Positions 2,464-33,432 of a stretch of DNA of 33,592 nucleotides are shown in pieces; positions within the stretch are counted from its first letter, which is position 1, and each line of letters starts with the position of its first letter. The notes beneath the pieces are model-generated. The model worked only from the letters and a program-made list of their open reading frames with translations, was not told the origin of the DNA and did not search any database. Origin of the DNA: Betaproteobacteria bacterium (GTDB taxonomy: Bacteria > Pseudomonadota > Gammaproteobacteria > Burkholderiales > Burkholderiaceae_A); NCBI GenBank assembly GCA_018970545.1, contig JAGWWC010000011.1, positions 1 through 33,592 on the forward strand, written 5' to 3'. The translations under genes were made by a program, and so were the position numbers.

Positions 2464-3765
2464 CTATGCTTTGATGAGATCACGAATTGCTTTTGATAGT
2501 GCGGTCGTGCCTGAGACAAAGCTTTCATGATTCTGTTCGACTTTATCAAGGTCATATCGGTAGTTCACCATCATCCCAAAGGACTGTTTGAGCCCTTTGC
2601 TGGAGTGGTCTGCGCCCAGGTTAACCCGTTCGAGTATTGCTCCATTGTTGAGATGAAACTTGGCAACCGGATCGCTGCGCACGCTTTCATCCGGGGCGGT
2701 TTGGGCAAGATAGGCCGAACACAGGCGCGTCAGTCGGTTCTGATGCGTTGCTGATAACACCGCATTTGATTTTGATAGGTTTTGAAGATTCGGCTGTAGT
2801 TCCTTGAAGTCGGCTTCGAGCCGACTCAGCTCTTTGGCGGTGTATCGTCCGGACTTCCACTTTGGTCCTTTGAGTAAAAATTCGGCCAAAGATGGAATAG
2901 GCGATAGGGTGCAGAAGGTCTTAAGACCGGGAAACTCTAATTTCAGATCCTCAGCAACCCGCTTGATCAGGAAGTTACCGAGATGAATTCCTTTTAAGCC
3001 CGGCTGACAATTTGAGATTGAATAAAAAGCCGCCACTTTATAGCGCTTTGTCTCCACTTCCGGGGGCTTACTGCGGTCCAGTAGTGGTGCTACCGCACTT
3101 GGCATATCGTTAAGAAGCGCGACCTCAACGAAGATCAGTGGTTCGTTTGGTAGTGTCGGATGAAAATAAGCATAGAGTCTGCGATCGGGCTCAAGTCGCC
3201 GTCTCAGGTCACCCCAGCCATCGATTTCGTGGACTGCTTCATGCTGGATGACTTTTTCGAGAAGGTGCGCCGGAGTCATCCAATCAAGCCGCTTGAGTTC
3301 CAAAAATCCAGGGTTAAACCACGAGGACAGCAGATGCTCAAAATCGGCATCGACTGCTGCCAGTGCTGGGGCCGAGCGCAAAGCGTTGAGGATCTCTTCG
3401 CGCATCCGGACGATGACTGCGGTACCAGAGGACACCCGATTTAGGCGCCGCAGCAATTCCTGCCGGGGAGGCTCGACTGCCCGCACCAATTCGATCAGGC
3501 TTTCGGGGGATCGTTTTTCCTTGTGGCTATCGAGTGCCCGAGTAATATGTTCAATATTGGGTTCGTATCGAGTTGCCAGTTGACTGTAGAACTCGCTTCG
3601 TGAACCGAAATCAAGTTTTTGATAGCGGTTTAAGGCACGGGAGGCAATTCCGACACTAACGGATTGACCTGGCTCTTTGATCAGCTCGTCGCAATCTGCA
3701 ATAAGTTTTTTTAACTCAGTTTTCTGATTGGCAACTTCGCGGGCTGCTTTCAGGCGCTCGAACAT
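2464..3765 (-). CDS. Malonyl-CoA decarboxylase (MatA/MLYCD family)
   Basis: 433 residues, typical for bacterial malonyl-CoA decarboxylases, which convert malonyl-CoA to acetyl-CoA and CO2 in the cytoplasm. The N-terminal half is the helical domain; the C-terminal half is the GNAT-like catalytic domain. Diagnostic stretches are EIDGWGDLRRRL (about 180-191), YFHPTLPNEPLIFVEVAL (about 200-217), FYSISNCQ (about 247-254, containing the serine region used in catalysis) and FHLNNGAILERVN (about 370-382, with His371 aligned to the family catalytic His). It is last in a minus-strand run behind a GntR/FCD regulator (43 bp away) and a RutE-like reductase. A GntR regulator next to this enzyme recalls the rhizobial matR-matA malonate locus, but no malonyl-CoA synthetase or MatC carrier is present here. 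Confidence 0.93.
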   Translation of the reverse strand: MFERLKAAREVANQKTELKKLIADCDELIKEPGQSVSVGIASRALNRYQKLDFGSRSEFYSQLATRYEPNIEHITRALDSHKEKRSPESLIELVRAVEPPRQELLRRLNRVSSGTAVIVRMREEILNALRSAPALAAVDADFEHLLSSWFNPGFLELKRLDWMTPAHLLEKVIQHEAVHEIDGWGDLRRRLEPDRRLYAYFHPTLPNEPLIFVEVALLNDMPSAVAPLLDRSKPPEVETKRYKVAAFYSISNCQPGLKGIHLGNFLIKRVAEDLKLEFPGLKTFCTLSPIPSLAEFLLKGPKWKSGRYTAKELSRLEADFKELQPNLQNLSKSNAVLSATHQNRLTRLCSAYLAQTAPDESVRSDPVAKFHLNNGAILERVNLGADHSSKGLKQSFGMMVNYRYDLDKVEQNHESFVSGTTALSKAIRDLIKA

Positions 3766-3808
3766 CCTGGGATCGCTTTCAATGAATTGTCGTAATGCGT
3801 CTTTTACG

Positions 3809-4549
3809 TTAACTTAGTTTTCGAGACTTCTGTAGCTTTTTTTCGGCACTTCCGCTGGCCGCTTTGCTCACCAGCTCCTCGGTCTTTTGATAATGTGCGC
3901 TGAGCAACCGAATCGCGAGTTCGATATCGCCTTGGATTGCAGCATTCATTATCGATTGATGCTCTGCATGCTCATTTCGTTTCTTCGAAGGCCCGGAGGC
4001 TGCAAGCTGTCTGAGCCGATAGGCTTCTTCGGCCAATTTATCGCAGTAGCTTAACAACCATCGGGAGGGGCAGGTGGCGAGTAGTGCCCGGTGAAAATCC
4101 CGATGAAGAGCCTCCCACTCCGGGTTTGGTTGGTGCGACTGCTCATTGAGCGATCGGGGTGTGCGTCCAAGTCGGTGATGAAGCAGCACGAGTCGATCCT
4201 CCCAATCGGATGTTCGGGCGCTGATGGCGTCTTTGAGCGCTAGCGTCTCAAGACGGATACGGGTCTCGGTAAGTATCGGTAGCTCGGCCCAGTTGAGAGG
4301 TGCAACGCTAAACCCACGCAAATCATTTCGTACGACAAGGCCCTCCGCCGAGAGCCGTGACAGCGCCTCGCGAAGCGGGGTCGCACCGACCCCATACTTA
4401 TCGCACATCAACTCGACTCTCAGCTTCGATCCGGGGGTGAGCAGTCCATCAGCGATATCAGTCCGGAGTTTTTCGTAGACAGCCGTAGCACGTGTTATGC
4501 CCTCTCTGGGCTGCGAGCCGACGCTGCGTACGGCAGGTTTTCTCGCCAT
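3809..4549 (-). CDS. GntR-family transcriptional regulator, FadR/FCD subfamily
   Basis: 246 residues. A winged helix-turn-helix covers about residues 22-85, with the typical YEKLRTDIADGLLTPGSKLR start and GVGATPLREALSRLSAEGLV recognition region. The C-terminal FCD effector domain (about 95-230) carries the conserved acidic and His positions seen as HRDFH, EHQSI and SAHYQ, which bind a metal and a small carboxylate in this subfamily. It starts three bases after the reductase stop and precedes malonyl-CoA decarboxylase, so the three genes are probably co-transcribed. By analogy with MatR it may respond to malonate or to an acid from the adjacent aromatic pathway. It is a plausible controller of both the leftward operon and the divergent one at 5283. 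The effector is unknown. Confidence 0.9.
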   Translation of the reverse strand: MARKPAVRSVGSQPREGITRATAVYEKLRTDIADGLLTPGSKLRVELMCDKYGVGATPLREALSRLSAEGLVVRNDLRGFSVAPLNWAELPILTETRIRLETLALKDAISARTSDWEDRLVLLHHRLGRTPRSLNEQSHQPNPEWEALHRDFHRALLATCPSRWLLSYCDKLAEEAYRLRQLAASGPSKKRNEHAEHQSIMNAAIQGDIELAIRLLSAHYQKTEELVSKAASGSAEKKLQKSRKLS

Positions 4550-4552
4550 CGC

Positions 4553-5149
4553 TTACAGGATCTCGGCAATCTCTTCGAAACGGTAGCGCTTCCCTCGCGG
4601 CTTTAGAGAGGCGTGGTCACCGTAGCCCAAGGCACAGAGAAAATTCGTTTTCACAGCGCTGCCCGACCAGAACGCCTGGTCAACCGCAGCGTGATCGAAT
4701 CCCGACATGGGCCCACAATCAAGGCCAAGCAGTCGCGCAGCCAGCATTAAATACGCGCCCTGAAGGCTGCTGTTGCGAAGCGCGGTCGCGAAGGTTTTTT
4801 CCGCATTGCCGATGTAATAGTTCTTTGCCTCTGCTTTGTGAGGAAAAAGCTCGGTGAGCGTTGCAGGAAAGTTCAGATCCATGCCGATGATGGCCACCAC
4901 GGGGGCGCTCAGGACTTTGCCGACATTTCCGGCATCTACACAGGTGGAGAGTTTTTTTCGGGAAGAGTCGCTTTGCGCAAATTTCAGCCGCATCGGCTGC
5001 GAGTTCATAGAGGTAGGGCCCCACTGGGCAAGCGAATACAGCTGCAACAGTGTCTCTGGCGAGAGGGTCTGAGGGAGCCAGCCGCCAAACGATCTCGCCT
5101 CTGAGAATAAACGCTTCGTGATTGCTTCAAGTGTGGGTTCGCTCATCAT
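4553..5149 (-). CDS. RutE/malonic-semialdehyde-reductase-like nitroreductase
   Basis: 198 residues, the usual size of the RutE/HadB group of flavin nitroreductases. Family landmarks are LFSEARSFGGW near the N-terminus, WGPTSMNSQP (about residues 43-52), FRNSSLQ-type ALRNSSLQGAYL (about 122-133) and LGLDCGPMSGFD (about 140-151), with ALGYGD near the C-terminus. E. coli RutE reduces malonic semialdehyde to 3-hydroxypropionate at the end of the Rut pyrimidine pathway. No other rut gene is present here; instead it leads an operon with a GntR regulator and malonyl-CoA decarboxylase, so a role with a C3 acid or aldehyde is plausible. The start at 5149 has a GGAG about 10 bases upstream; a second ATG follows immediately. 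Family certain, substrate inferred. Confidence 0.85.
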   Translation of the reverse strand: MMSEPTLEAITKRLFSEARSFGGWLPQTLSPETLLQLYSLAQWGPTSMNSQPMRLKFAQSDSSRKKLSTCVDAGNVGKVLSAPVVAIIGMDLNFPATLTELFPHKAEAKNYYIGNAEKTFATALRNSSLQGAYLMLAARLLGLDCGPMSGFDHAAVDQAFWSGSAVKTNFLCALGYGDHASLKPRGKRYRFEEIAEIL

Positions 5150-5209
5150 GTCGTCGGTTCTCCAAGTCGCTCTAATCCTGTAGCACGACCGCTCTAAGGG
5201 TTTTTGCTT

Positions 5210-5237
5210 ATTTTATATAGAAATGACTGATTCACAA
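5210..5237 (-). promoter_or_regulatory. Candidate sigma70 promoter for the reductase-gntR-decarboxylase operon
   Basis: Read on the minus strand, TTGTGA (5237-5232) and TAAAAT (5215-5210) are separated by 16 bases, matching the -35 and -10 consensus at four and five of six positions. It lies about 60 bases upstream of the reductase start in an AT-rich island within an otherwise GC-rich window. For the rightward operon only a poorer pair is visible (ATGACT at 5223 and GATTAT at 5245, spacing 16), overlapping the same island. Confidence 0.35.
5211..5222. promoter_or_regulatory. Imperfect palindrome, candidate GntR/FCD operator
   Basis: Bases 5211-5222 read TTTTATATAGAA: TT, mismatch, TATATA, mismatch, AA, symmetrical except at one pair. 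It overlaps the candidate -10 box of the minus-strand promoter, as expected for an autoregulatory site of the GntR gene two positions downstream. FadR-subfamily sites are short palindromes of this scale, but the match to their usual GT...AC core is incomplete. Low confidence. Confidence 0.2.
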
Positions 5238-5282
5238 TTTTATCGATTATTTTTTTGATGGCAATCATGTGGGAGACGCGTC

Positions 5283-6248
5283 ATGTGGGGAAGATGCAAA
5301 GGATTGGGTGTTGCGCTGATGATGTCTGTATTGTCGGGCCTCGCGGCGCCGGCGTGGGCCTATCCGGATCGGCCCATCAAACTGATTGTGGCCTTTCCCC
5401 CCGGCAGCTCAACGGACATTGTCGCGCGCGCAATTGCGCAGCCTCTCGGTGAAGCGCTCGGCCAGCCTGTTGTTGTCGAGAATCGCGGTGGCGCCGGCGG
5501 GAATATCGGAACGATGGCAGTCGCGCGATCGCCTGCCGATGGCTACACGTTTTTGATGCATAGCGTGGCGTATTCGGTGAATCCGTCGCTGTACACTAAT
5601 GCGGGCTACCAGGTAGGCAAAGAGTTGGTGGGCGTGGCCATGGGGGCTGTATCCCCGAATATCCTCTACGTGCATCCGTCAGTGAAAGCGAAGGATCTGA
5701 AAGAGCTGCTGGCGCTGTCCAAAACAGAGAAACTCAGTTACGGATCCTCGGGCAATGGCACCACCACCCATTTGGGGGCGGAGTTGTTGTTTAGAAATCT
5801 GGCCAAAGTCGACATACAGCACGTTCCATTTACCCCTGCGGCAGCAGCCACCGCAGTCGTGGGCAATCATGTGCCCATCGGCTCTACTTCGATACCGCCG
5901 GTGGTTCAGTTGGCAAAAGCGGGGAGAGTTCGGCCGATTGCGGTCACGAGCCTAAAGCGCAGCAGCGCCTTGCCTGATGTCCCCACTGTGGCAGAGCTCG
6001 GATATCCCGGTTTTGAGGCCAACACGTGGTTTGCCATGATGGCACCAGCGGGGGTGTCGGCAACGATCCTGGATCGCTTGAACACCGAGATTAACCGTAT
6101 CCTGCAAAATCGGTCGATCAATGAGGGGTTTGCCGCCCAGTCACTTGAGGCCATTCGCATGGGCCGCACTGAGTTGGATGCATATCTTTTGTCCGAGTCT
6201 CGCAAATGGGCAGAGGTGGTGAAGCAGACCGGGGCCAAGGTCGATTAA
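5283..6248 (+). CDS. Bug/TctC-family tripartite tricarboxylate transporter solute-binding protein
   Basis: 321 residues. A signal peptide ends at AWA/YPDRP (cleavage after about residue 26). The mature N-terminus has the classic Bug pattern YPDRPIKLIVAFPPG, followed by ENRGGAGGNIG (about 66-76) and SPADGYTFL. Later family features are the YGSSGNGTTTHLGAELL segment and the LPDVPTVAELGYPGFE segment. These periplasmic proteins bind carboxylates and deliver them to TctA/TctB membrane subunits; none is encoded in the window, so this is an orphan binding protein. A GGGAG sits about 8 bases before the ATG. It is first in a tight four-gene operon, suggesting it captures an organic or aromatic acid used by the following enzymes. 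The ligand cannot be deduced from sequence. Confidence 0.92.
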   Translation: MWGRCKGLGVALMMSVLSGLAAPAWAYPDRPIKLIVAFPPGSSTDIVARAIAQPLGEALGQPVVVENRGGAGGNIGTMAVARSPADGYTFLMHSVAYSVNPSLYTNAGYQVGKELVGVAMGAVSPNILYVHPSVKAKDLKELLALSKTEKLSYGSSGNGTTTHLGAELLFRNLAKVDIQHVPFTPAAAATAVVGNHVPIGSTSIPPVVQLAKAGRVRPIAVTSLKRSSALPDVPTVAELGYPGFEANTWFAMMAPAGVSATILDRLNTEINRILQNRSINEGFAAQSLEAIRMGRTELDAYLLSESRKWAEVVKQTGAKVD

Positions 6249-6264
6249 GCATCGCATTAAAACT

Positions 6265-7128
6265 ATGAAATTGGTGAGCTTTGTTCACGACTGCAGTGAG
6301 CGCTACGGAATCGCAGTGCAGGGGGGTGTTGTGGACATCCCCGGGTGCGATGCGGGCGCTCCACCCTCCATTCTTGATTTCATTCGTCTCCGAGATGAGG
6401 GCCCGGGTGAGTTTTCACGCCTTCTGGCGGCATGCGAATCCGGAGAGGTGATTCCGAACACCGAGGTTCGGTTCTTGCCCTGCATTCCCCACCCAAGCAA
6501 GATTATTTGCTTGGGTGTGAATTATCACGACCATGCCGCAGAAGGCGGAAACAAGGTTGCCGATTACCCCACCATTTTTTTAAGAGGCCCCTCATCATTG
6601 ATTGGACATCTGGGCAAAATCCCTCTGTCGCGGGTTTCTGATAAGTTGGATTACGAAGCAGAACTTGCGCTTGTGATTGGAAAGTCAGCCAAAGACGTAG
6701 CAGAGGAGCGGGCGCTGGATCACGTGTTTGGCTATGCTTGTTTTAACGATGCCACCTTCAGAGACTATCAACGCAAAACGACTCAATGGACGATCGGGAA
6801 AAATTTTGATGCGACGGGCGGATTTGGACCGTGGATTGTCTCCGCCGATGAACTCCCGCCGGGCGCTGTAGGTCTTCATATTGAGTCCCGGCTCAACGGC
6901 AACGTGATGCAAAGCGCATCGACAAAAGACATGGTGTTTGCTGTCGCGCAGACTATATCTCTGATGTCGCAATGCATGACACTGGAGCCAGGAGACGTCA
7001 TCCTGATGGGCACCCCTGCTGGTGTGGGGTATGCCCGTACACCACCCGTGTGGATGAGGCCCGGTGATGTCATTGAGATTGAGATCGAGGGAATCGGCAC
7101 ACTTCGTAACACCATCGTTGGGGCCTGA
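6265..7128 (+). CDS. Fumarylacetoacetate hydrolase (FAH) family protein
   Basis: 287 residues. The FAH catalytic domain covers about residues 75-285, preceded by a short N-terminal domain. Visible motifs are CLGVNYHDHA (82-91), DYEAELALVIG (129-139) with metal-binding Glu131 and Glu133, FNDATFRD (160-167) with Asp162, GKNFD (178-182) and LMGTPAGVG in the C-terminal part. The family includes fumarylpyruvate hydrolase, acylpyruvase, oxaloacetate decarboxylase and 2-hydroxyhepta-2,4-diene-1,7-dioate isomerase activities, which act on beta-diketo or acylpyruvate compounds from aromatic ring cleavage. It lies 16 bases after the binding protein and is followed with no gap by an intradiol dioxygenase, so it probably processes a ring-cleavage product. 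The precise reaction is not assignable. Confidence 0.92.
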   Translation: MKLVSFVHDCSERYGIAVQGGVVDIPGCDAGAPPSILDFIRLRDEGPGEFSRLLAACESGEVIPNTEVRFLPCIPHPSKIICLGVNYHDHAAEGGNKVADYPTIFLRGPSSLIGHLGKIPLSRVSDKLDYEAELALVIGKSAKDVAEERALDHVFGYACFNDATFRDYQRKTTQWTIGKNFDATGGFGPWIVSADELPPGAVGLHIESRLNGNVMQSASTKDMVFAVAQTISLMSQCMTLEPGDVILMGTPAGVGYARTPPVWMRPGDVIEIEIEGIGTLRNTIVGA

Positions 7129-7959
7129 ATGGTCGATTTGGGCAGCCTGACTGGAGTCGTTGAGAGGAGCTTTGACGGCCTTGAAGACTCCCGGCGTCGT
7201 CAGCTTTTAAAAGACCTGGTCCGAACGATTCATGATTTTGTAGTGCGCAATAACATCTCGCATGCGGAATGGCGCCAATCGATTGAATTTTTGCATCGTG
7301 TTGGCGACATCAGCAATGCGTCACGCAGTGAATTCTCATTGCTCTCGGATGTGCTCGGTATTTCAAGTCTTGTGGATCTCATCGGAGCACCACCGGGCGC
7401 GACTCCGAGTAGCGTGTTGGGGCCTTTTCACTCGGCCGATTCGCCATGGCGCGACAACCCGGTTGATTTGGTCAAGCAAAACACGGGTGAAGTGGTGATT
7501 CTAGAGGGGGTTGTCAAAACGCTGTCGGGGTCGCCGATTGCGGATGCAACGATCGATTTTTGGCAGAACGCGGACAATGGGCTGTACTGGCAGGTCGACC
7601 CATCTCAGCCGGCTGATAATCTGCGCTGTAAATTGAAAGTTGGCAAAGACGGACACTTTTTGATTCGAACAATTCGGCCAAAACCGTATTGCATTCCCAC
7701 CGATGGCCCGGTCTGGAAGGAGCTCGTTGAACCGGCACGCAGGTCGGCGTGGCGCCCAGGCCACTTTCATGTCATTGTGTCGGCGCCCGGATACCAGACC
7801 ATCGTGACCGAGATTTTTGGTCACGATGATCCCTACCTAGCGACAGATGCAGTATTTGGTGTGCGTGAAGGCTTACTGGGTCGTTACGAAGCAGTCGATG
7901 GAGAGGCGCCTCGGATGCGATTTGATTTTGAATTGGCCAGAGGGGCGGAGGAAAGCTAA
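7129..7959 (+). CDS. Intradiol ring-cleavage dioxygenase (catechol/hydroxyquinol 1,2-dioxygenase type)
   Basis: 276 residues: an N-terminal helical dioxygenase domain (about 20-100, ending ATPSSVLGPF) and a C-terminal beta-sandwich catalytic domain. All four Fe(III) ligands expected of the family are visible: Tyr153 (GLYWQ), Tyr187 (PKPYCIPTDGPV), His212 and His214 (RPGHFHV). The tail DDPYLATDAVFGV is characteristic of the hydroxyquinol/catechol 1,2-dioxygenase branch rather than protocatechuate 3,4-dioxygenase, and no second subunit gene is present. These cytoplasmic enzymes insert O2 between the two hydroxyl groups of a catechol to give a muconate or maleylacetate. Its start codon directly abuts the FAH stop and its own stop directly abuts the next start, implying a single transcript. 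Hydroxyquinol is the likeliest substrate class, but a substituted catechol is possible. Confidence 0.93.
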   Translation: MVDLGSLTGVVERSFDGLEDSRRRQLLKDLVRTIHDFVVRNNISHAEWRQSIEFLHRVGDISNASRSEFSLLSDVLGISSLVDLIGAPPGATPSSVLGPFHSADSPWRDNPVDLVKQNTGEVVILEGVVKTLSGSPIADATIDFWQNADNGLYWQVDPSQPADNLRCKLKVGKDGHFLIRTIRPKPYCIPTDGPVWKELVEPARRSAWRPGHFHVIVSAPGYQTIVTEIFGHDDPYLATDAVFGVREGLLGRYEAVDGEAPRMRFDFELARGAEES

Positions 7960-9291
7960 ATGATTGGAGAAAGTAAAGTGCGTTTGCTCATCGTGATGTC
8001 GGTTGCGGCCCTGCTTGCCGGCTGCGCAACCTATATCAGCCCCCTCACCGAGGTGGCTCCGAAAGAGGCCGTCTGCCCCTCCGGCGTGCCGGCCGGAGTG
8101 AAATGTTTTCGGGGGCGTGATTCCGCGAACTCGCATTATCTGATTGCGGTGCCGCAGAAGTGGAGTGGCGTGCTGGTCGTTCACGCGCACGGCGGCCCGG
8201 TGCTGGGGGACCCACCGGCCTCGCGGGCCGACGAAGACATCAGGCGTTGGGCGATCACGCTGTCAGAGGGCCACGCTTGGGCCAGCTCGGTCTTTCGTCA
8301 GGGCGGGTTCGCAGTGACGACGGCCGCCGAGGATACCGAGCGTATCCGGCAGATCTTTATTCACTACATCGCCAGACCCCGCGTGACGCTACTGCATGGG
8401 CAGTCCTGGGGAACGATGGTGGCTGCTCGTGCGGCAGAGCTTTACCCGAATTCCTGGGGTGGCCTACTTTTGACCAGTAGCGTCATCGCCGGGCCGACCA
8501 CCTATGACTTTCGGCTGGATTTGCGCGCTGTGTACCAACACCTTTGCGGTAATCATCCGCGGCCTACCGAGGCCCAGTACCCACTATCGATTGGGCTACC
8601 GGTTGGAGTAAAAATGAGCGCTCAAGAGCTGGCCTCCCGAGCCGATGAGTGTCTGGGAATTGGTAAGCCTGCAGCGCAGAGAACTGCCGAACAATTGAAA
8701 AAAATCAAAACGATTGTCGATGTGATTCGAATTCCGGAGGCCTCCATTTTGGGGCACCTGACATGGGGAACCATCAGTCTGCAGGATGTGGTGAGCAAGA
8801 CCGGCGGTGCCAGTCCTTTTGGTAATCATTCTGTGCGATACCAAGGATCCGATGACGACAATGGCTTAAATGCCGCACTCGATGCGAAGGGCCTTCGATT
8901 CAAAGCCGATCCGATGGCAGCACGGGCCTTTGCGGCGGACGTCGATTACGCCGGAAGATTTCGGGTGCCAGTATTGACCACGCACGGCATCAACGACAGC
9001 ACTGTCTTTGTCGAGGGTAACGACACGCTGCGTCAGCGGATGGAGCGGCATGGTGTTGGGGCTAATCTCGTGCAGACTTTTGTGGATTCGCGTGAACACA
9101 GCTATCTGGGGGATCCGATTTATCCACCGCTCTTTGAGGCGCTCCTGAAGTGGGTTGAGCAGGGCATCAAGCCCACGCCGCTCGGAATAGCGAATCGGTG
9201 CAAAGAGATGGCGATGCAGCAGGCAAATCTGTGTCGATTCGTCCCAGACTATGCGCCGCGGCCTCTGGCTTCACGAATCGCTCCGCGCTGA
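7960..9291 (+). CDS. Alpha/beta-hydrolase lipoprotein
   Basis: 443 residues. The N-terminus is a lipoprotein signal peptide with lipobox LLAGC (Cys22), so the protein is probably membrane-anchored outside the cytoplasm. The alpha/beta-hydrolase fold carries nucleophile motif GQSWG (Ser149), a likely oxyanion region at HAHGGP (75-80), acid Asp346 (HGINDSTV) and His380 (SREHSYLGD). A long insert between the nucleophile and acid (about 185-330) forms a lid or cap. Paired Cys (39/49, 195/231, 414/425) suggest disulfides, consistent with an oxidising compartment. ATG 7960 has GAGGAAAG upstream; GTG 7978, with GGAG ahead of it, is an alternative that also leaves a good signal peptide. As last gene of the operon it may release a phenolic acid from an ester; the substrate is not identifiable. 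Confidence 0.8.
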   Translation: MIGESKVRLLIVMSVAALLAGCATYISPLTEVAPKEAVCPSGVPAGVKCFRGRDSANSHYLIAVPQKWSGVLVVHAHGGPVLGDPPASRADEDIRRWAITLSEGHAWASSVFRQGGFAVTTAAEDTERIRQIFIHYIARPRVTLLHGQSWGTMVAARAAELYPNSWGGLLLTSSVIAGPTTYDFRLDLRAVYQHLCGNHPRPTEAQYPLSIGLPVGVKMSAQELASRADECLGIGKPAAQRTAEQLKKIKTIVDVIRIPEASILGHLTWGTISLQDVVSKTGGASPFGNHSVRYQGSDDDNGLNAALDAKGLRFKADPMAARAFAADVDYAGRFRVPVLTTHGINDSTVFVEGNDTLRQRMERHGVGANLVQTFVDSREHSYLGDPIYPPLFEALLKWVEQGIKPTPLGIANRCKEMAMQQANLCRFVPDYAPRPLASRIAPR

Positions 9292-10421: not shown

Positions 10422-10460
10422 TTTAGATGTGAAAACTGCATTTTATGGTGATTGTCACGC

Positions 10461-11393
10461 ATGACTCGTTTTCGGCGAGAAGCGCTATTCGGAATCTTAA
10501 TTCCCTTTCTTTATCTGATTGTCGAGCTCGGCTTTACGGATCAGATCGTCGGAATTTTATCGGGCACAGCAAGCGATGAGATCTTAAAAGGCTTGGAGTT
10601 CTGGGCCAGGATTGTTTCGGGTACCGGCCTGGGACTGGTGCTGTTTCGGCTTAAGTTGCTCGCACGTTTCCGGGAATCCTTGCGATTGATTGCTTTTGTC
10701 GCACTGGGCGTGGTCATCATGTGGAATGTACAGCGCGAACTCACCGATTATCTCGTCCGCACCGCTAAGCCGGAAGATAAGCAGGCCGCAGTGGCGCTTT
10801 CTCTGGTTGCGAAATACGCGGGCGAAGGCCGCCTCCGGCTTGAGAGCGGTGAGCCAGTCATTTGGGGACCGCTGGACCGGGCCGAAAAAGACATCGTGAT
10901 GGCGTTGTTTCCCGCCGCGGCCTTGCACACCATGAATCGTGAGGCGCAGCTGACTCAGTGGGTGCTGGAGCACGGAAGTGTGAACGCCGGACTCACCATC
11001 ACCACTGAGCTCGAATACAACGCTTACAAGAATTTGATTATTCCGCCAATTGTGGTGGGCATCTCACTGTTTTTCGCGCTCGTGAACCTTTCTTTTTTGG
11101 TGGGAACGTTTGGCAATTTGATTCGACCGAGAACGCGTTTGCCGGTGATGTTGGCGACGTTGCTGCTGCTGGTTTTGGTGTCTTTCATTCCGCGCAATGC
11201 GCTGATGGACTCCCCGGGTTATGTCAATGCAATGCGGGCTGGCCTATGGAAGGAAAAGCCGGTGCTTGGAATCTTGGTGGAATGGTCCTCGCAGACCGCA
11301 CCGGCATGGAGTTTCCCGTCGCATCTCGCCCACGAGTTCCTGTTGGGCGGCTATTCATTTAAACGACCTGCTTTGCCTTGGTCTTCAGGCTAG
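10461..11393 (+). CDS. Multi-pass membrane protein of unknown function
   Basis: 310 residues from ATG 10461; TTG 10452 would add three residues but leaves almost no space to the GGTG upstream. I do not recognise the family. Hydrophobic segments lie at about 8-26, 45-65, 74-90, 192-218 and 227-243. The polar stretch between the third and fourth (about 91-190) would form a soluble domain, probably on the outer side given Arg/Lys-rich positions near the first segments. The C-terminal 65 residues are mostly non-membrane and end abruptly (ALPWSSG). No motif suggests a transporter, enzyme or sensor. It sits between a divergent lipase and gltX, whose start follows 29 bases after its stop, so it may be co-transcribed with gltX. 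Confidence 0.7.
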
Positions 11394-25826: not shown

Positions 25827-26383
25827 TGCATTGGTTGGAGGCACTCACCTGGGTCGATCTGCTGGTGATCGGGATCATTGTCGTGTCAACGCTGTTATCG
25901 CTATTTCGTGGATTAATCAAAGAGATCGCTTCGCTCGCGATCTGGGTCTTGGCCATTGTTGGTGCAAGCCGACTCGCATCGCCTGCGGCCGCCTTATTAC
26001 CCCAGTGGCTTGCGCCGCCGCTGCAGCAGACTGCCGCCTTCATCATCATTTTGCTGCTGATCTTGCTGCTGGGAAGGCTGCTGACCATGCTGCTGCGAGA
26101 GGTCGTCAGTGCGGCCGGAATCAGCGGCCTGGATCGACTGCTGGGCATTGGTTTTGGCCTGGCACGCGGGGCATTGCTGGTGATCGTGTTGGCCATCCTT
26201 GGGGCGATGACGGCGCTGCCCAGCCAGCCCGCCTGGCAGAAGGCCCAGAGCCGGCCGTTTTTAGAGCTCGGAATCCGCACCGCCGCGCCTTGGCTGCCCC
26301 CGACACTGGGAGATCGGCTTAGACTTCCGGTTTCACCAACCTCCAAGACCCATCCCTCGGGGAGCCCAGTATGTGTGGCGTGA
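25826..26383 (+). CDS. cvpA: CvpA family membrane protein
   Basis: 185 residues with four hydrophobic segments (about 10-27, 33-50, 66-86 and 108-128). The N-terminal pattern TWVDLLVIGIIVVSTLLSLF and the GLIKEIASLAIW segment are the CvpA signature. CvpA is an inner-membrane protein linked to colicin V export and envelope-stress tolerance, and it precedes purF in many proteobacteria. The TGATG overlap with the SPOR gene and the 13-base overlap with purF indicate co-translation. The hydrophilic C-terminal tail (about 150-185) is not membrane-spanning. Confidence 0.92.
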   Translation: MHWLEALTWVDLLVIGIIVVSTLLSLFRGLIKEIASLAIWVLAIVGASRLASPAAALLPQWLAPPLQQTAAFIIILLLILLLGRLLTMLLREVVSAAGISGLDRLLGIGFGLARGALLVIVLAILGAMTALPSQPAWQKAQSRPFLELGIRTAAPWLPPTLGDRLRLPVSPTSKTHPSGSPVCVA

Positions 26384-27882
26384 TCGGTGTAGTTGGACAT
26401 TCGGCAGTCAATCAACTGCTCTACGATGGCCTGCTGCTGCTTCAGCACCGCGGCCAAGATGCCGCAGGCATCTCCACCGCCAAGGGCAAGCGCATCCATA
26501 TTCACCGCGGCAATGGTTTGGTCCGCGATGTATTTCGCACCCGTGATATGCGCAATCTCCAAGGTGAGATGGGCATCGGCCATGTCCGTTATCCCACCGC
26601 AGGCAGCGCCTCGAATTCCGAAGAGGCCCAGCCGTTTTATGTGAATGCACCCTTTGGCCTTGTATTGGGCCACAACGGCAACCTCACCAACGCCGAGGAG
26701 CTGCAGCAGGATATGTACCGTCGGGATCGTCGCCACATCAATACCGAGTCGGATTCCGAGGTGCTGCTCAATGTCTTTGCCCATGAATTGCAGCAGGCCG
26801 TATCGGGACTCTCGCTGGATGAGTCTTCGATTTTTACCGCCGTCTCGGCCCTGCATGCTCGGGTCCGTGGTGCCTATGCCTGTGTGGCCATGATTGCGGG
26901 CTATGGCATCGTGGCGTTTCGTGATGCCTACGGTATTCGGCCGCTTGCCCTGGGCCGGCATGCAGATGCGCGCGGCGAAGAGTGGATGATTGCTTCGGAA
27001 ACCGTGGCCATTAACGGCCTGGGCTTTACGCCGATTCGCGATGTTGCTCCGGGCGAGTGCGTGATTCTTACGCTCGATGGCCGGCTGCATTCCCGAGTCT
27101 GTGCCCGGCATACTCGCCTAAATCCTTGTGTATTTGAATACGTTTACTTTGCAAGGCCTGATTCAGTAATTGACGGGGTAAGCGTCTACGACGCCCGCCT
27201 GCGTATGGGCGAGACGTTGGCCGATAAAGTCCGCAAGGAGTTTCCAACGGGCGAGATTGATGTGGTGATGCCGATCCCGGATTCCAGCCGGCCCGCCGCT
27301 ATCCAGCTGGCCATGCAGCTGGGCATCGACTATCGCGAGGGCTTTATCAAAAACCGGTATATCGGCCGAACCTTTATCATGCCCGGCCAGGCCGCTCGTA
27401 AAAAATCGGTTCGGCAAAAGCTCAATGCGATTCCGTATGAGTTTAAAAATAAAAGCGTACTGATCGTGGATGACTCGATTGTGCGGGGAACCACCAGCCA
27501 GGAGATTGTCCAGATGGCCCGTGACTCGGGGGCAAAACGCGTGATCTTCGCCTCAGCGGCACCGCCAGTGCGCTACCCCAATGTTTATGGCATTGATATG
27601 CCCACCCGTGGCGAGCTGATCGCCTTTGGCCGCAGCGACGACGAGATCTGCAAGGCCATCGGCGCAGATGCCCTGATTTATCAGGATCTCGAATCGATGC
27701 GCTCCGATGTGATGAATCTGAACCCCAATATCGAGGGGCTGGAAGCATCGTGCTTTGATGGCAATTACATCACGGGCGATATCAACGATCGCGTGCTGGA
27801 CTCTCTGGAATATGCCCGTATTCATAGCGATGCCGATGCCACACGAAACCAGCTTGCGTTAAATCTGAACCATGACGAATAA
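26371..27882 (+). CDS. purF: Amidophosphoribosyltransferase
   Basis: 503 residues. The start is fixed by the N-terminal MCGVIG, where Cys2 becomes the catalytic N-terminal nucleophile after Met removal. The glutaminase half contains HRGQDAAGI, GHVRYPTAG and LGHNGNLTN; the phosphoribosyltransferase half contains the PRPP loop LIVDDSIVRGTTS (about 364-377). It makes phosphoribosylamine, the first committed step of purine synthesis. No N-terminal propeptide or iron-sulfur cysteines are evident, as in E. coli PurF. The stop overlaps the metZ start by 11 bases. Confidence 0.97.
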   Translation: MCGVIGVVGHSAVNQLLYDGLLLLQHRGQDAAGISTAKGKRIHIHRGNGLVRDVFRTRDMRNLQGEMGIGHVRYPTAGSASNSEEAQPFYVNAPFGLVLGHNGNLTNAEELQQDMYRRDRRHINTESDSEVLLNVFAHELQQAVSGLSLDESSIFTAVSALHARVRGAYACVAMIAGYGIVAFRDAYGIRPLALGRHADARGEEWMIASETVAINGLGFTPIRDVAPGECVILTLDGRLHSRVCARHTRLNPCVFEYVYFARPDSVIDGVSVYDARLRMGETLADKVRKEFPTGEIDVVMPIPDSSRPAAIQLAMQLGIDYREGFIKNRYIGRTFIMPGQAARKKSVRQKLNAIPYEFKNKSVLIVDDSIVRGTTSQEIVQMARDSGAKRVIFASAAPPVRYPNVYGIDMPTRGELIAFGRSDDEICKAIGADALIYQDLESMRSDVMNLNPNIEGLEASCFDGNYITGDINDRVLDSLEYARIHSDADATRNQLALNLNHDE

Positions 27883-29089
27883 GAAAAAACCGTCTTCTGC
27901 ATCACGCCGCGATCTGGGCTTTGCAACCCGGGCCGTTCGGGGGGGCACGCAGCGTTCTGATTTTGGTGAGCACTCCGAGGCGCTGTACCTCACCTCAAGC
28001 TTCGTCTTTGATGACGCCCAGCAGGCGGCAGATCGCTTTCAAAACCGCGAGCCGGGCATGGTCTATTCGCGGTTTTCTAACCCCTCGGTGCAGATGTTTG
28101 AAGAGCGGCTTGCGTCTTTGGAAAACGCGGAGCGCTGTGTGGCGACAAGTTCCGGCATGGCGGCCATTCTGGCCACCTGCTTGGGGTTGCTGAAGGCTGG
28201 CGATCATGTTGTATCCACTCCCAGTCTATTTGGTGCAACGGTCCAACTTTTTGAAACTACCCTGCGCAAATTCAACGTGCCGGTCGATTATGTGCCGCTC
28301 ACTGATCCTCAGGCGTGGGCCAAGGCGGTGACGCCAGCGACAAGACTCTTTTATCTCGAAACGCCTTCCAATCCACTGACCGAGATTGCCGATATCGCTG
28401 CGATAGCGGCGGTCGCCCAACAGCATGGCATCACGTTGGTGGTAGACAACTGCTTTTGTACGCCCGCCTTACAGCAGCCGCTGGCGCTGGGCGCTGATTT
28501 GGTTTTGCATTCGGCAACCAAGTATCTCGATGGCCAGGGCCGCGTTCTTGGGGGCGCTGTCGCAGGCCGCAGTGAGCTAATCGAGCCGATTTTTCAGGTG
28601 GTCCGCACCTGCGGACCCTCGTTATCGCCCTTTAATGCATGGGTGCTGCACAAGGGGCTAGAGACCTTAGATTTACGGATGCGGGCCCACAGTGCATCGG
28701 CGCTCGCCTTGGCCGGCTGGCTTGAGCAGCATCCGCGTGTCGCCCGTGTTTTGTATCCGGGATTGGCCTCGCATCCTCAGCATGCATTGGCGATGCGGCA
28801 GCAAAGCGCGGGGGGCGCAATCGTGTCGTTTGAAGTAAAAGGCGCAGATCCCACCGAGCAGCGGCAGCGGGCATTTTCGCTCATCAATGCGCTCCAGATC
28901 ATGTCGGTCACTGGTAACCTCGGTGATACCCGCACGACCATTACCCATCCGGCCTCGACCACCCATGGCCGCATCTCACCGCAGGCCCGCGAGCAGGCCG
29001 GCATTCGTGAAGGCTTAGTCCGCATTGCGGTGGGCCTGGAAGACCTCGAGGATCTCAAGGCAGATCTCGACGCTGGCTTGGCCGCTTAG
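27872..29089 (+). CDS. metZ: O-succinylhomoserine sulfhydrylase
   Basis: 405 residues, Cys/Met-metabolism PLP enzyme. Lys217 (SATKYLDGQG) binds PLP; YSRFSNPSVQMFEERLASLE, TSSGMAAI and LETPSNPLTEIADI are family segments. It forms homocysteine from O-succinylhomoserine and sulfide. The MetZ call rather than cystathionine gamma-synthase rests on the QAADRFQN and GRVLGGAV features and on position directly behind purF, where metZ usually lies in betaproteobacteria and pseudomonads. It shares the asd-derived aspartate-semialdehyde branch with the genes to the left. Confidence 0.93.
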   Translation: MTNKKKPSSASRRDLGFATRAVRGGTQRSDFGEHSEALYLTSSFVFDDAQQAADRFQNREPGMVYSRFSNPSVQMFEERLASLENAERCVATSSGMAAILATCLGLLKAGDHVVSTPSLFGATVQLFETTLRKFNVPVDYVPLTDPQAWAKAVTPATRLFYLETPSNPLTEIADIAAIAAVAQQHGITLVVDNCFCTPALQQPLALGADLVLHSATKYLDGQGRVLGGAVAGRSELIEPIFQVVRTCGPSLSPFNAWVLHKGLETLDLRMRAHSASALALAGWLEQHPRVARVLYPGLASHPQHALAMRQQSAGGAIVSFEVKGADPTEQRQRAFSLINALQIMSVTGNLGDTRTTITHPASTTHGRISPQAREQAGIREGLVRIAVGLEDLEDLKADLDAGLAA

Positions 29090-29098
29090 GGCCTGCCG

Positions 29099-30292
29099 AT
29101 GGATCGGTTGAGCGCGAAAGATCCACCACCGCATCGCGACCTCTGCACCGACTGTGGGGTATCGCGATCCTCGCAGCCCAAACGGTGCGCCACTGCTTGT
29201 CAGTTCATTGCACCCGACTACCCGGCAATGGAGCGACAGGTCCATGGCCGGGCCCGTAGGCCCCATCAGGCGGATGAACAATTCTTTGGCCCTTATCAGA
29301 TTCTGAATCGGGCCGTGCTGAAAACGCCTGCGCCGGGAGCCCAGTGGACAGGTATCACCACCCGAATCGCACAACGGCTTTTAGAGGAAAAGATGGTCGA
29401 TGCCGTGCTCACCATGGCGCCAGATGAAGAGGACCGTTGGCGGCCAGTGCCGGTGCTGATCACGGACCCCCAAGACATGGAGCGCTGCCGCGGCATGCGC
29501 ATGGGCTACGCGCCGCTGCTGGCCTTGCTTGAACCGGCATTGCAAAAAGGCATTGAGCGCATCGCAGTAATTGGAATCCCGTGTCAGGTGTATGCACTGC
29601 GGGCCCTTGAAAAAGAACTGGGCTTTAAAAAAATGTATGTGATTGGCACGCCGTGCTCGGATAACACCACCACCGCGCGGTTTCATGAGTTTTTAAAACT
29701 CCTGACTCCTAAGCCCGAGACCATTACCTATCTTGAGTTTTGTGCGGATTATCACGTCGAGATTCGTTTTGACAACGGTAAGAAAAAACGCATTCCTTTT
29801 CTGATGCTGCCTTTATCCAAACTGCCCCAGGATTTTTTTCCGCTAACCTGTCGTACCTGTGTGGACTACACCAATGTGTTGTCGGACATCACGGTAGGCT
29901 ACATGGGTGGCGAGGGCCAGCAGTGGCTGATCGTGCGCAATGACACGGGCGCGGAATTGCTGAGCCTGCTGGGCGATGAAATTCGGCTGTCGACACCGGG
30001 AAGCGGCGGCAATCGGCGGGGCCCAGTGAAAGGGTTTTTACAAAACACGGAGCGGGCCGCAGGCGGGCTACCACTGCGTAGCATGCCATCATGGCTACGG
30101 CCGATCGTGGGCTGGCTGATGCCAAAAATTGGACCCCGGGGCCTCGAGTTTGCCCGGGCCCGTGTGGAGATGAAGGCCATCGAGAGCGTGATTCATCTGC
30201 GGCGTGAGGAGCCGCGGCGGATGAAGTCGATGGTGCCGGAGCACGTCTGGCGGCTGGTCAAGCCCTATGGTCTAAAGGGAGATCAGGGTTAG
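29099..30292 (+). CDS. FrhB/FdhB-family iron-sulfur flavoprotein, BciB/HCAR-like reductase
   Basis: 397 residues, starting 9 bases after metZ. Cys16 and Cys19 (CTDCG) with Cys30 and Cys34 form a possible iron-sulfur site. GAQWTGITT (80-88), GIPCQVYALR (Cys162), GTPCSDN (Cys186) and CRTCVDYTNVLSD (Cys251, Cys254) followed by ITVGYMG match the layout of the coenzyme F420 hydrogenase beta-subunit family. Within it, the order resembles cyanobacterial 8-vinyl reductase (BciB) and plant 7-hydroxymethyl-chlorophyll a reductase (HCAR), which use ferredoxin, FAD and two [4Fe-4S] clusters. No photosynthesis gene is in the window, so chlorophyll chemistry cannot be claimed; some other ferredoxin-dependent reduction is equally likely. 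Its last four bases overlap the end of convergent dnaE2. Confidence 0.8.
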   Translation: MDRLSAKDPPPHRDLCTDCGVSRSSQPKRCATACQFIAPDYPAMERQVHGRARRPHQADEQFFGPYQILNRAVLKTPAPGAQWTGITTRIAQRLLEEKMVDAVLTMAPDEEDRWRPVPVLITDPQDMERCRGMRMGYAPLLALLEPALQKGIERIAVIGIPCQVYALRALEKELGFKKMYVIGTPCSDNTTTARFHEFLKLLTPKPETITYLEFCADYHVEIRFDNGKKKRIPFLMLPLSKLPQDFFPLTCRTCVDYTNVLSDITVGYMGGEGQQWLIVRNDTGAELLSLLGDEIRLSTPGSGGNRRGPVKGFLQNTERAAGGLPLRSMPSWLRPIVGWLMPKIGPRGLEFARARVEMKAIESVIHLRREEPRRMKSMVPEHVWRLVKPYGLKGDQG

Positions 30293-33200
30293 TGAAAATC
30301 TCGGGAAGAAGTCTCAAGTGGCCCGATAAGTTCAGCCAAGAGATCGGATCGATCTTCAACCCGTTGGGCCAATAGATTGCGGACCTGGCCGGCTGCGCGG
30401 GGATCAATATGCTGATCACGCTGCCAGGTGCCATAGACCAGCATCAGCTGGGAATACAGCACTGCTTTATAAAAGCGCTCTAAGACTTCGGGCTGAATGA
30501 TCACATTGATCATCCCGGTTTCGTCCTCCAGAGAAATAAAGAGTGTGCCGCGTGCAGTACTGGGCCGCTGCCGATGGGTGACCAGGCCTGCCGCACGCGC
30601 TAGCCGGCCGTGTGTGTAGCGATTTAATACTTCTGCTGGCTGGGTGCCGAGTTGTGTAAGTGTTGGCCGCAGCACCGCAAGTGGATGGCGGCCAAGTGTC
30701 AGCCCAAGACTTGCATAGTCGGCAACGATGTCATCGCCTTCTGTGGGGGCAGATAGCTCAGGTAAAGGTTCGTGAATTGGAGCGGTGATAAGAAGTGCGG
30801 GCCTGCGGTGCTGGCCGCTAGTGGCCCAGACGGCCTGATGGCGATGGCCTGCAATGGATCGCAGTGCGCCCGCGGCAGCCAATGCATTTAAGTCTCCCCG
30901 ATCTAGGCCGGCACGCAGCGCCAGATCTTCCACCGATGTGTAGGGCCGATGCAGCACGATGTCGTGCATGGCCTGCTCGGAGAGTCCTGCGACTCTGTTG
31001 AATCCGAGACGGACTCCGTGGGGCTCAAGATGAGTTTCAACACCACTGAATTGAACATCGACTGCCAGCACACGGACACCATTGCGTTTTGCATCTTGAA
31101 TCAGCTGGGAAGGCGAATAAAACCCAAGCGGCTGCGCATTCAGCAGGGCAGCCAGAAAGGCATCGGGATGGTGATGCTTCATCCAGCAGCTGACATAGAC
31201 CAGCAGCGCAAAGCTGGCGGCATGGGACTCTGGAAATCCGTATTCGCCAAAGCCCTGGATTTGCCGAAATACCCGGTCTGCGAATTCTCGGGGATAACCG
31301 CGGGCCAGCATGCCGTTAACGATCCGGTCATAGAACTGCCCAAGGCCGCCCTTGCGGCGCCATGCCGCCATCGAGCGGCGCAGCTGATCGGCCTCGCCGG
31401 CGCTAAAGCCCGCTGCAAGAATCGCCAGCTGCATGACCTGCTCTTGAAAGATCGGCACACCAAGTGTGCGCGAGAGTGCCTCGCGGACTGCAGGGCTGGG
31501 ATATTCCACCGGTTCAAGCCCCTGACGCCTGCGCAGATAGGGGTGCACCATGCCGCCTTGAATCGGCCCCGGCCGCACGATGGCCACCTCAATGACCAGA
31601 TCATAAAAGCATCGCGGCTTTAGCCGTGGCAGCATCGACATCTGGGCCCGGGATTCAATCTGAAATACGCCCACGGTCTGTGCTGCACAGATCATGTCGT
31701 AGGTCGCTGAATCTTCAGCAGGAATATCTTGCATCTGAAAATCACGGCCAAGCTTTTGGCCAATCAATTCCAGCCCCCGACGAATGGCTGAGAGCATGCC
31801 GAGTGCCAAGACATCGACCTTGAGCAGGCCCAGTGACTCGAGATCGTCTTTATCCCATTGAATGACGCTGCGCTCTGGCATCGAAGCGTTTTCCACTGGC
31901 ACCAAGTCAGAGAGCCGATGGCGGGCAATCACAAATCCGCCAACATGCTGCGATAGATGTCGGGGTGCGCCGATCAGCTGATTGCACAGCCCAGCCCAAC
32001 GTTCGCATTGGGCAGCAGATGGGGGTGAAATTTCATGGCGGCAGGCCAGTAGCGCCGGGCTTTCCAAGGCTTCTTGCAGATGAGTGGCCAGCACGCTGGC
32101 ATCGACCTGCCGTCCATCCCACCACTGGTGGTGTTTGGCCACATGGTCCACCAGGGCAGCATGAATACCCAGGGCCTTGCCGGTATCGCGAAGCGCAGAC
32201 CGTGGCTTATAGGTGGTCACCGATGCGGCCAGTGCCGCCCGCTCACGGCCATATTTTTGATAAATGTATTGAATGACTTCCTCGCGCCGCTGATGTTCAA
32301 AATCCACATCAATATCGGGCGGTTCATTGCGCTCTTTGGAAATAAAGCGCTCAAAAAGCATGCTCATGCGGGCCGGATCGACTTCGGTAATGCCCAGGCA
32401 ATAACAGACCGCAGAGTTGGCGGCCGATCCCCGGCCCTGGCAGAGAATCCCTTTGCTGCGGGCAAAGTCCACGATGTCATAGACTGTTAAAAAGTAAGGC
32501 TCATAACGCAGTTCATGGATAAGCTGCAGCTCATGTTCAATTTGCTGGCGGACCTTGGGATTGATGCCTTGAGGAAAGCGTCGGCGCACGCCTTCTTCGG
32601 TCAGATGCCGAAGCCACTGGGTGGGTGTGAGTCCTGGCGGCACAATCTCTTCGGGATACTCATAGCGCAGCTCATCTAAAGAGAACTGGCAGCGTTTGGC
32701 CAGCATCACTGTTGCGGCCATCAGCTCGGGGGAATAAATGCGGGCCAATCGCAGACGGTTGCGCAGATGTTGCTCAGCATTTGGGGCAAACCGTTTGCCG
32801 CAGGCGGTAATCGGCAGTCCATGCCGAATCGCCGTCAGCGTATCGGCCAGTGGTTTGCGCGAGCGGCGGTGCATGACCACATCGCTGGTGGCCACTAGGC
32901 CCACCCGATGCAGTGCTGCCAGGGTCTGCAGATGATCACGCCAGGCGTTGTCGTGGCCACGCAGCAGTAACGCGCAGCCAATGTAGAGACGATCAGCAAA
33001 CAGTTCTTTAAGCCGCTGGATTGCCGGGTAATGCCGGGCAGGACTATCACTGGAGTCCCCAATCCAAATCACAAGGCAGTCGGGCAGCCCGCTTTGCAGA
33101 TCGTCAACGTTCAGCCGGTAGTGGCCTTTGATCTCACGGCGTCGTGTCTGGGTGATGAGCCATCCGAGTTGTGCATAGCCCTGACGTGACATAGCGATCA

Positions 33201-33432
33201 CCACAATGCGTCCGGCCAGATCAGCGCAGGAAAACTGGGCCCCAATCAGTAACTGAATTCCCAGTGGCTTGGCGGCCATATGGGCCTGAACTGCGCCTGC
33301 GACCGAGGCCTCATCGGTGATGGCGATTGCTCGATAGCCGAGGTGATGGGCCCGATCAATTAATTCTGCAGGCGCTGAGGCGCCATGCAGAAAAGAGTAA
33401 TGACTGCGGCAGATGAGTTCAGCAAATTCCAC
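30289..33432 (-). CDS. dnaE2: Error-prone DNA polymerase DnaE2 (ImuC)
   Basis: 1047 residues from a GTG start at 33432, 12 bases after the imuB stop. An N-terminal PHP domain (about 1-200, starting ELICRSHYSFLHGASAPAEL) is followed by the C-family polymerase core: GRGSAANS (about 333-340), catalytic Asp residues in PDIDVDF (about 372-378) and a third in KVDVLALGM (about 538-546). A helix-hairpin-helix region follows, then an OB fold (LFISLEDETGMINVIIQPEV) near the C-terminus. The length and the preceding imuB identify DnaE2 rather than replicative DnaE. It performs mutagenic translesion synthesis with ImuA/ImuB in the SOS response; any LexA box would lie upstream of imuA, outside the window. 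Confidence 0.96.
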   Translation of the reverse strand: MEFAELICRSHYSFLHGASAPAELIDRAHHLGYRAIAITDEASVAGAVQAHMAAKPLGIQLLIGAQFSCADLAGRIVVIAMSRQGYAQLGWLITQTRRREIKGHYRLNVDDLQSGLPDCLVIWIGDSSDSPARHYPAIQRLKELFADRLYIGCALLLRGHDNAWRDHLQTLAALHRVGLVATSDVVMHRRSRKPLADTLTAIRHGLPITACGKRFAPNAEQHLRNRLRLARIYSPELMAATVMLAKRCQFSLDELRYEYPEEIVPPGLTPTQWLRHLTEEGVRRRFPQGINPKVRQQIEHELQLIHELRYEPYFLTVYDIVDFARSKGILCQGRGSAANSAVCYCLGITEVDPARMSMLFERFISKERNEPPDIDVDFEHQRREEVIQYIYQKYGRERAALAASVTTYKPRSALRDTGKALGIHAALVDHVAKHHQWWDGRQVDASVLATHLQEALESPALLACRHEISPPSAAQCERWAGLCNQLIGAPRHLSQHVGGFVIARHRLSDLVPVENASMPERSVIQWDKDDLESLGLLKVDVLALGMLSAIRRGLELIGQKLGRDFQMQDIPAEDSATYDMICAAQTVGVFQIESRAQMSMLPRLKPRCFYDLVIEVAIVRPGPIQGGMVHPYLRRRQGLEPVEYPSPAVREALSRTLGVPIFQEQVMQLAILAAGFSAGEADQLRRSMAAWRRKGGLGQFYDRIVNGMLARGYPREFADRVFRQIQGFGEYGFPESHAASFALLVYVSCWMKHHHPDAFLAALLNAQPLGFYSPSQLIQDAKRNGVRVLAVDVQFSGVETHLEPHGVRLGFNRVAGLSEQAMHDIVLHRPYTSVEDLALRAGLDRGDLNALAAAGALRSIAGHRHQAVWATSGQHRRPALLITAPIHEPLPELSAPTEGDDIVADYASLGLTLGRHPLAVLRPTLTQLGTQPAEVLNRYTHGRLARAAGLVTHRQRPSTARGTLFISLEDETGMINVIIQPEVLERFYKAVLYSQLMLVYGTWQRDQHIDPRAAGQVRNLLAQRVEDRSDLLAELIGPLETSSRDFH

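Follow-up and report, generated by a model that had tools for sequence, protein, structure and literature searches.

A Predicted bciB Gene Behind metZ in the Small Genome of a Phototrophic Betaproteobacterium

The Locus

The window described here (the whole stretch of DNA analyzed, 33,592 nucleotides) lies on contig 32 of a 1.87-Mb assembly (G000) that is 91% complete. On its plus strand, an open frame at 29099..30292 encodes a protein of 397 amino acids which, on the basis of the frame, its domains and its fold, is a predicted 8-vinyl reductase (BciB) with FrhB_N and FrhB_C domains and an N-terminal cysteine extension. Directly upstream is metZ (27872..29089, plus strand), which encodes an O-succinylhomoserine sulfhydrylase recognized by its NCBIfam model above cut-off and which has bciB behind it at a genus-specific site; its stop is separated from the bciB start by 9 bases. 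The next gene upstream is purF (26371..27882, plus strand), and the whole row reads trpF-trpB-trpA-accD-folC-SPOR-cvpA-purF-metZ, then bciB. On the other side lies the convergent gene dnaE2 (30289..33432, minus strand), encoding an error-prone DNA polymerase, whose 3′ end shares 4 bases with that of bciB. When the bciB protein was used as query in its own genome, the single match was the protein itself.

The translated frame contains the segments GAQWTG (residues 80–85), GIPCQVYALR (159–168), CRTCVDYTN (251–259) and VGYMG (266–270). These segments and a gap of ten residues between C19 and C30 had been listed in an earlier note on this DNA and occur exactly so in the frame; the position behind metZ, also listed there, is confirmed as well.

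Elsewhere in the window (2464–9291), genes with domains of a malonyl-CoA decarboxylase, a GntR regulator, a nitroreductase, a TctC binding protein, an FAA hydrolase and a catechol dioxygenase are grouped. A frame of 313 amino acids with a TTG start (10452–11393), free of Pfam matches and maybe a chance frame, immediately precedes a gene whose product carries a tRNA synthetase domain of class I (E and Q).

Family Assignment and Predicted Structure

Both Pfam domains of the protein are well above their cut-offs (FrhB_FdhB_N, 83.8 bits, E 9.3e-24, cut-off 22; FrhB_FdhB_C, 92.5 bits, E 3.1e-26, cut-off 23.3). Among solved structures the best relative by sequence is HCAR from Arabidopsis (PDB 5dqr; residues 11–394, N-terminal extension included, E 1e-68), followed by F420-type proteins at E 1.6e-16 and weaker. 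An AlphaFold2 model built from an alignment of 29 sequences (the window protein and 28 of the 59 homologous contig loci) reached a pLDDT of 87.4 and a pTM of 0.89, and was matched to HCAR both by Foldseek (E 7.5e-37, TM 0.90) and by VIA (382 aligned residues, model residues 9–393, with Z 48.6 and rmsd 2.2). The assignment to the BciB/HCAR family made in the earlier note is right.

Relatives at 65–96% identity were found in the 59 contig loci, one of which (L085) is just a piece. Together with the domain and HCAR matches, these relatives show that the frame is no chance occurrence. A rapidly built tree (53 rows, 49 of the 59 loci among them; no bootstrap; two outgroup branches of great length) contains only close homologues, HCAR and a Thiodictyon protein and was used for the genus grouping and the place within the ingroup: five rows of the window's genus cluster with the window protein (SH-aLRT 99), and HCAR and the Thiodictyon homologue fall outside the ingroup. 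The ingroup around the window protein includes rows titled Rhodocyclus, Rhodopseudomonas, Rhodoferax, Roseococcus and Roseobacter, all of them genera with phototrophs.

Conserved Cysteines and Presumed Cluster Ligands

Eight cysteines (C16, C19, C30, C34, C162, C186, C251 and C254) are invariant in all 59 rows of an alignment comprising the window protein and 58 of the 59 contig loci (left out: the piece L085, as well as L001 and L004–L014), whereas C130 and C215 vary across the same rows. The N-terminal quartet C16-x2-C19-x10-C30-x3-C34 (29144..29200, plus strand) comprises the presumed ligands of a distal [4Fe-4S] cluster. The remaining four, on the same strand, are the presumed ligands of a proximal one: C162 in GIPCQV (29582..29584), C186 in TPCSDN (29654..29656) and the pair C251 and C254 in CRTC (29849..29860). 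Eight invariant cysteines are enough for two [4Fe-4S] clusters.

In a wider alignment of 98 homologues with at least 60% identity (L110, L124, L125 and L126, below this value, left out), two rows stop short of C16, C19 and S22 and one row stops short of each other position. In this set C16 and C19 are present in 96/96 rows that reach them, C30 and C34 in 97/97, and C162, C186, C251 and C254 in every row reaching them; S22 is conserved in 96/96 readable rows. The earlier note had regarded the C19–C30 spacing as unusual. The spacing is real, but it is the rule among close homologues (96/96 readable rows).

Where the pattern does differ is in the comparison with HCAR and the Thiodictyon protein, which in the alignment have C-x2-C-x2-C-x11-C vs. 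C-x2-C-x10-C-x3-C in the window protein. The first, second and fourth cysteines align with those of HCAR, the third sits at C30 where HCAR has it at the position matching S22, and the distance from the second to the fourth is 14 residues in both patterns. From the alignment we infer that one presumed [4Fe-4S] ligand has moved and that both patterns would build the same distal cluster. The C-x2-C-x10-C-x3-C class comprises the window protein together with the homologues close to it, which by record title are alpha- and betaproteobacterial, along with one gammaproteobacterial metagenome-assembled genome.

In a published AlphaFold 3 model of Synechocystis BciB, ferredoxin docks on a surface made up of residues 9–40 (PMC13297055); it is in this region that the window-type BciB group shows a cysteine pattern of its own. 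In Rhodobacter sphaeroides, Synechocystis BciB did not recover 8-vinyl reduction, for which PMC4214422 considers misfolding, failed interaction with native enzymes and lack of reductant as possible causes. It is conceivable, although rather unlikely, that the BciB/HCAR family falls into two ligand classes and that the swap marks a changed electron donor, because the AlphaFold 3 model puts ferredoxin on residues 9–40, and helps to explain the Synechocystis result. If the reading of two classes were true, the cysteine swap might offer a handle on what decides the electron donor of BciB. No mention of two BciB cysteine classes was found in the portions available of PMC13297055, PMC4214422, PMC4836224, PMC7242693, PMC5972617 and PMC3931815 or in a literature search within one library.

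Phototrophy of the Host and Distribution of BciB

Contig 66 of the same genome carries two Photo_RC genes as well as pufC, bchX, bchY, bchZ, bchC, bchI and bchD, these last seven over the NCBIfam cut-offs, in a check that covered part of the bch gene set; by their place beside pufC, the two Photo_RC genes are taken as pufL and pufM. The earlier note had left the choice between a phototroph using a BciB-type enzyme and a non-phototrophic paralogue, of which the former is the better supported alternative. The bch and puf genes in the genome and a protein placed among BciB-type relatives, which the note had named as the signs of an ordinary bciB, are both found.

The distribution of homologues was followed in three samples of genomes. 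In the order sample (399 genomes, Burkholderiales to judge from the titles of matching records) 32 genomes have a match; the strong ones (E 2.7e-179 or better), 30/30, all fall in the 48 pufLM-positive genomes and none in the 351 negatives. The two weak matches, both in genomes without pufLM, are a 62-residue piece (G213) and a distant paralogue (G133). In the phylum sample (398 genomes, on the same basis Pseudomonadota, 18 with a match) all 15 strong homologues occur in the 31 pufLM-positive genomes and none in the 367 negatives, and three weak ones (G634, G691 and G762), 25–29% identical, are in genomes none of which is pufLM-positive; G000 and G282 count among the strong cases of either sample, and the genomes are not independent. 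The five weak homologues (G133, G213, G634, G691 and G762) were dropped before BciB was counted. One strong homologue (G372), at a contig end, is without the first 28 residues.

In the sample of nearest relatives (61 genomes) a match, in each case strong, was obtained in 11 genomes, and 10 of the 11 are pufLM-positive (22/61 overall). The exception is a genome of the same genus (G006, 79% complete) which has bciB and in which pufLM was not found.

The weak piece in G213, a genome 95% complete and without pufLM, spans 62 residues (C148:4768-4953) that are 51% identical to the C-terminal part of BciB. The genus has phototrophs, and this stretch is perhaps a remnant left after the loss of phototrophy.

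BciA and BciB as Mutual Replacements

A search with PF13460 in 13 genomes returned, among the 30 loci listed, one cluster present in seven of eight BciB-negative phototrophs (not in G012) and in none of the five BciB-positive genomes, and one member of this cluster served as BciA query. The name is predicted from the likeness of its peptides (SCLASRTG, SGLxYSIVRPTAFFKS and ERGDHAVF) to Acaryochloris BciA, for which tryptic peptides are printed in PMC4836224; the query matched no NCBIfam family at E 1e-20. To be called BciA a match needed E 2.7e-71 or better, and those at E 6e-18 or weaker were taken to be other NAD-binding proteins.

The three samples together contain 83 pufLM-positive genomes, of which 79 entered the BciA search (left out: G024, G557, G573 and G704); with the pufLM-negative G006 these make 80 genomes. 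BciB was found in 46 and BciA in 25, several of the latter matching the query incompletely and two (G076 and G538) with an internal stop. Two genomes with short pieces, G438 (67 residues, 72%, E 9.9e-24) and G009 (36 residues, 64%), were counted as having no BciA. Strong matches to both occur in none of the 80, and this mutual replacement of BciA and BciB in the phototrophs examined is a clear comparative result. The genome of the window gave a weak match only to the BciA query (28% identical, E 6.6e-6). This complementarity places the bciB product, as judged from sequence comparison, at the 8-vinyl step, where BciB would replace BciA.

The remaining nine genomes (G012, G016, G025, G201, G230, G438, G504, G550 and G731) have neither, so the step can be done otherwise, in agreement with the third, COR-type 8-vinyl reducing activity described in PMC4214422. 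Six of them (G201, G230, G504, G550, G731 and G438) are phototrophs 97–100% complete without a strong match to BciA or BciB and may rely on COR-type 8-vinyl reduction.

A long-branched BciB was observed in G009 (C5:17152-18321; L131, L075) amid acyl-CoA, CoA-transferase and TRAP-transporter genes. G009 belongs to the sister genus g2, and BciA is present in six of the seven other g2 members tested; in G009 BciB may have taken the place of BciA, or the assembly may be mixed.

Place of bciB in Relatives

The order purF-metZ-bciB followed by convergent dnaE2 occurs in the window, L030, L031, L077 (where metZ and bciB are both fragmentary) and G001, and in L029 up to the end of its contig. In G003 bciB and metZ are at the ends of two contigs, and a stretch of roughly 0.5 kb lies behind bciB in G003 and G001. 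All bciB-less genomes of the sister genus that were compared at this site (G007, G011, G013 and G017) have purF before metZ, then a small other gene, then dnaE2. The small gene, which we take to be NlpC-like, has the opposite direction in G017, and when it was searched against loci of the window's genus (the window, L030, L031, L032, L077, L129 and L134) nothing matched at E 1e-3.

At other loci the neighbors are different. The bciB gene immediately precedes bchI, in the same orientation, in 7/59 loci (L036, L038, L040, L044, L045, L048 and L054), near bchI in L043, L050 and G026, and before crtE-crtF in Limnohabitans (L076 and L080); the order bciB-bchI-bchD occurs in several other Burkholderiales. 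A photosynthesis gene is present in the flanks of at least 13 of the 59 loci (the other 46 are without annotated surroundings), a lower bound since short contigs are frequent and two genomes supplied the queries for photosynthesis genes. Given the placements without metZ elsewhere and the sister-genus site without bciB, the linkage to metZ is best read as a relocation within one genus, with no functional link.

Predicted Function

With very little doubt, the window gene is bciB, coding for a ferredoxin-type (bacterio)chlorophyll 8-vinyl reductase of a small-genome phototroph. It is best read as an ordinary bciB of which only the place, outside the photosynthesis cluster, has changed.

It is very improbable that the protein is instead a BciB paralogue recruited to a non-photosynthetic substrate and tied to methionine or purine metabolism. 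Such a role would agree with a gene in a housekeeping row, 9 bases behind metZ, but no second copy was found in this phototroph, for which BciA gave no strong match, the strong homologues in the order and phylum samples track pufLM and not metZ, and the four bciB-less genomes of the sister genus still have purF-metZ, with dnaE2 behind. The co-occurrence with pufLM led to rejection of the non-phototrophic paralogue that the earlier note had put forward.

A 7-hydroxymethyl reductase of HCAR type with a different pigment as its substrate is suggested by the nearest solved structure; HCAR, the only close homologue with one, acts elsewhere on the pigment (C7 hydroxymethyl), a point that was weighed against BciB. 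This reading is highly unlikely given a mere 33% identity, the reaction of plant HCAR, which turns chlorophyll b back into a (PMC4214422), and the complementarity of BciA and BciB, which indicates the 8-vinyl step.

A beta subunit of F420 hydrogenase/dehydrogenase (FrhB/FpoF type), to which the names of the Pfam domains (FrhB/FdhB) and matches to the NCBIfam frhB and FpoF models (E 2.6e-20 to 4.1e-23) would point, is extremely unlikely and was rejected, as the scores (72.6–81.9 bits) are below the cut-offs (269–475) and the structures are more distant (best F420 protein by VIA, Z 32.2 over 313 residues, vs. 48.6 for HCAR). CofD, the marker used for F420 synthesis, was not found in the window's genome (91% complete), though G002 of the same genus has a match. 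The latter, over cut-off, is at G002:C45:11781-12677 (L195), with none in six other searched genomes of the genus.

For the preferred reading, BciB, the cofactors, electron path, substrate and ferredoxin of the window protein are proposed by analogy with the characterized enzymes, among which Chloroherpeton BciB is reported to have FAD and two [4Fe-4S] clusters (PMC13297055; the two clusters also in PMC7242693). Electrons would pass from reduced ferredoxin to the N-terminal (distal) [4Fe-4S] cluster, then to the core (proximal) one and to FAD, and 3,8-divinyl-chlorophyllide a, or the corresponding protochlorophyllide, would have its vinyl group at C8 hydrogenated to ethyl, toward bacteriochlorophyll. 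Because bciB is located outside the photosynthesis cluster and 9 bases behind metZ, it is probably transcribed by read-through from the housekeeping trp-acc-fol-pur-met row.

Comparison with Known Systems

With the characterized BciB proteins (Slr1923 and Ctha_1208) the window protein shares the family, the restriction to phototrophs and the role of alternative to BciA, and presumably two [4Fe-4S] clusters and FAD; unlike theirs, the window gene sits behind metZ, and the contrast in cysteine pattern is drawn against HCAR. The likeness to HCAR takes in the fold and the succession of domains along almost the entire chain, with corresponding cysteines bar the shifted one; the window protein differs in its 33% identity, and HCAR in its own N-terminal C-x2-C-x2-C-x11-C and its plant reaction from chlorophyll b to a.

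WP_100923195.1 from Candidatus Thiodictyon syntrophicum belongs to the same family but has HCAR-type cysteines and is 36% identical to the window protein vs. 43% to HCAR. Its gene, on the 485-kb plasmid pTs485 (L110:11923-13167), is near bchI, a gene for magnesium chelatase subunit D and bchO, with transposase genes close by. A phage or plasmid origin of the window gene was considered and rejected: no phage relative was found, viral contigs gave none, and the single record on a plasmid belongs to a purple sulfur bacterium.

FrhB and FpoF have the core domains in common with the window protein and differ in substrate and in far lower scores. BciA, which is NADPH-dependent, catalyzes the same reaction (PMC4214422) and is an unrelated protein. 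BciB itself has already been reported for some purple bacteria (PMC7242693), and a tree legend in PMC4836224 names purple nonsulfur bacteria.
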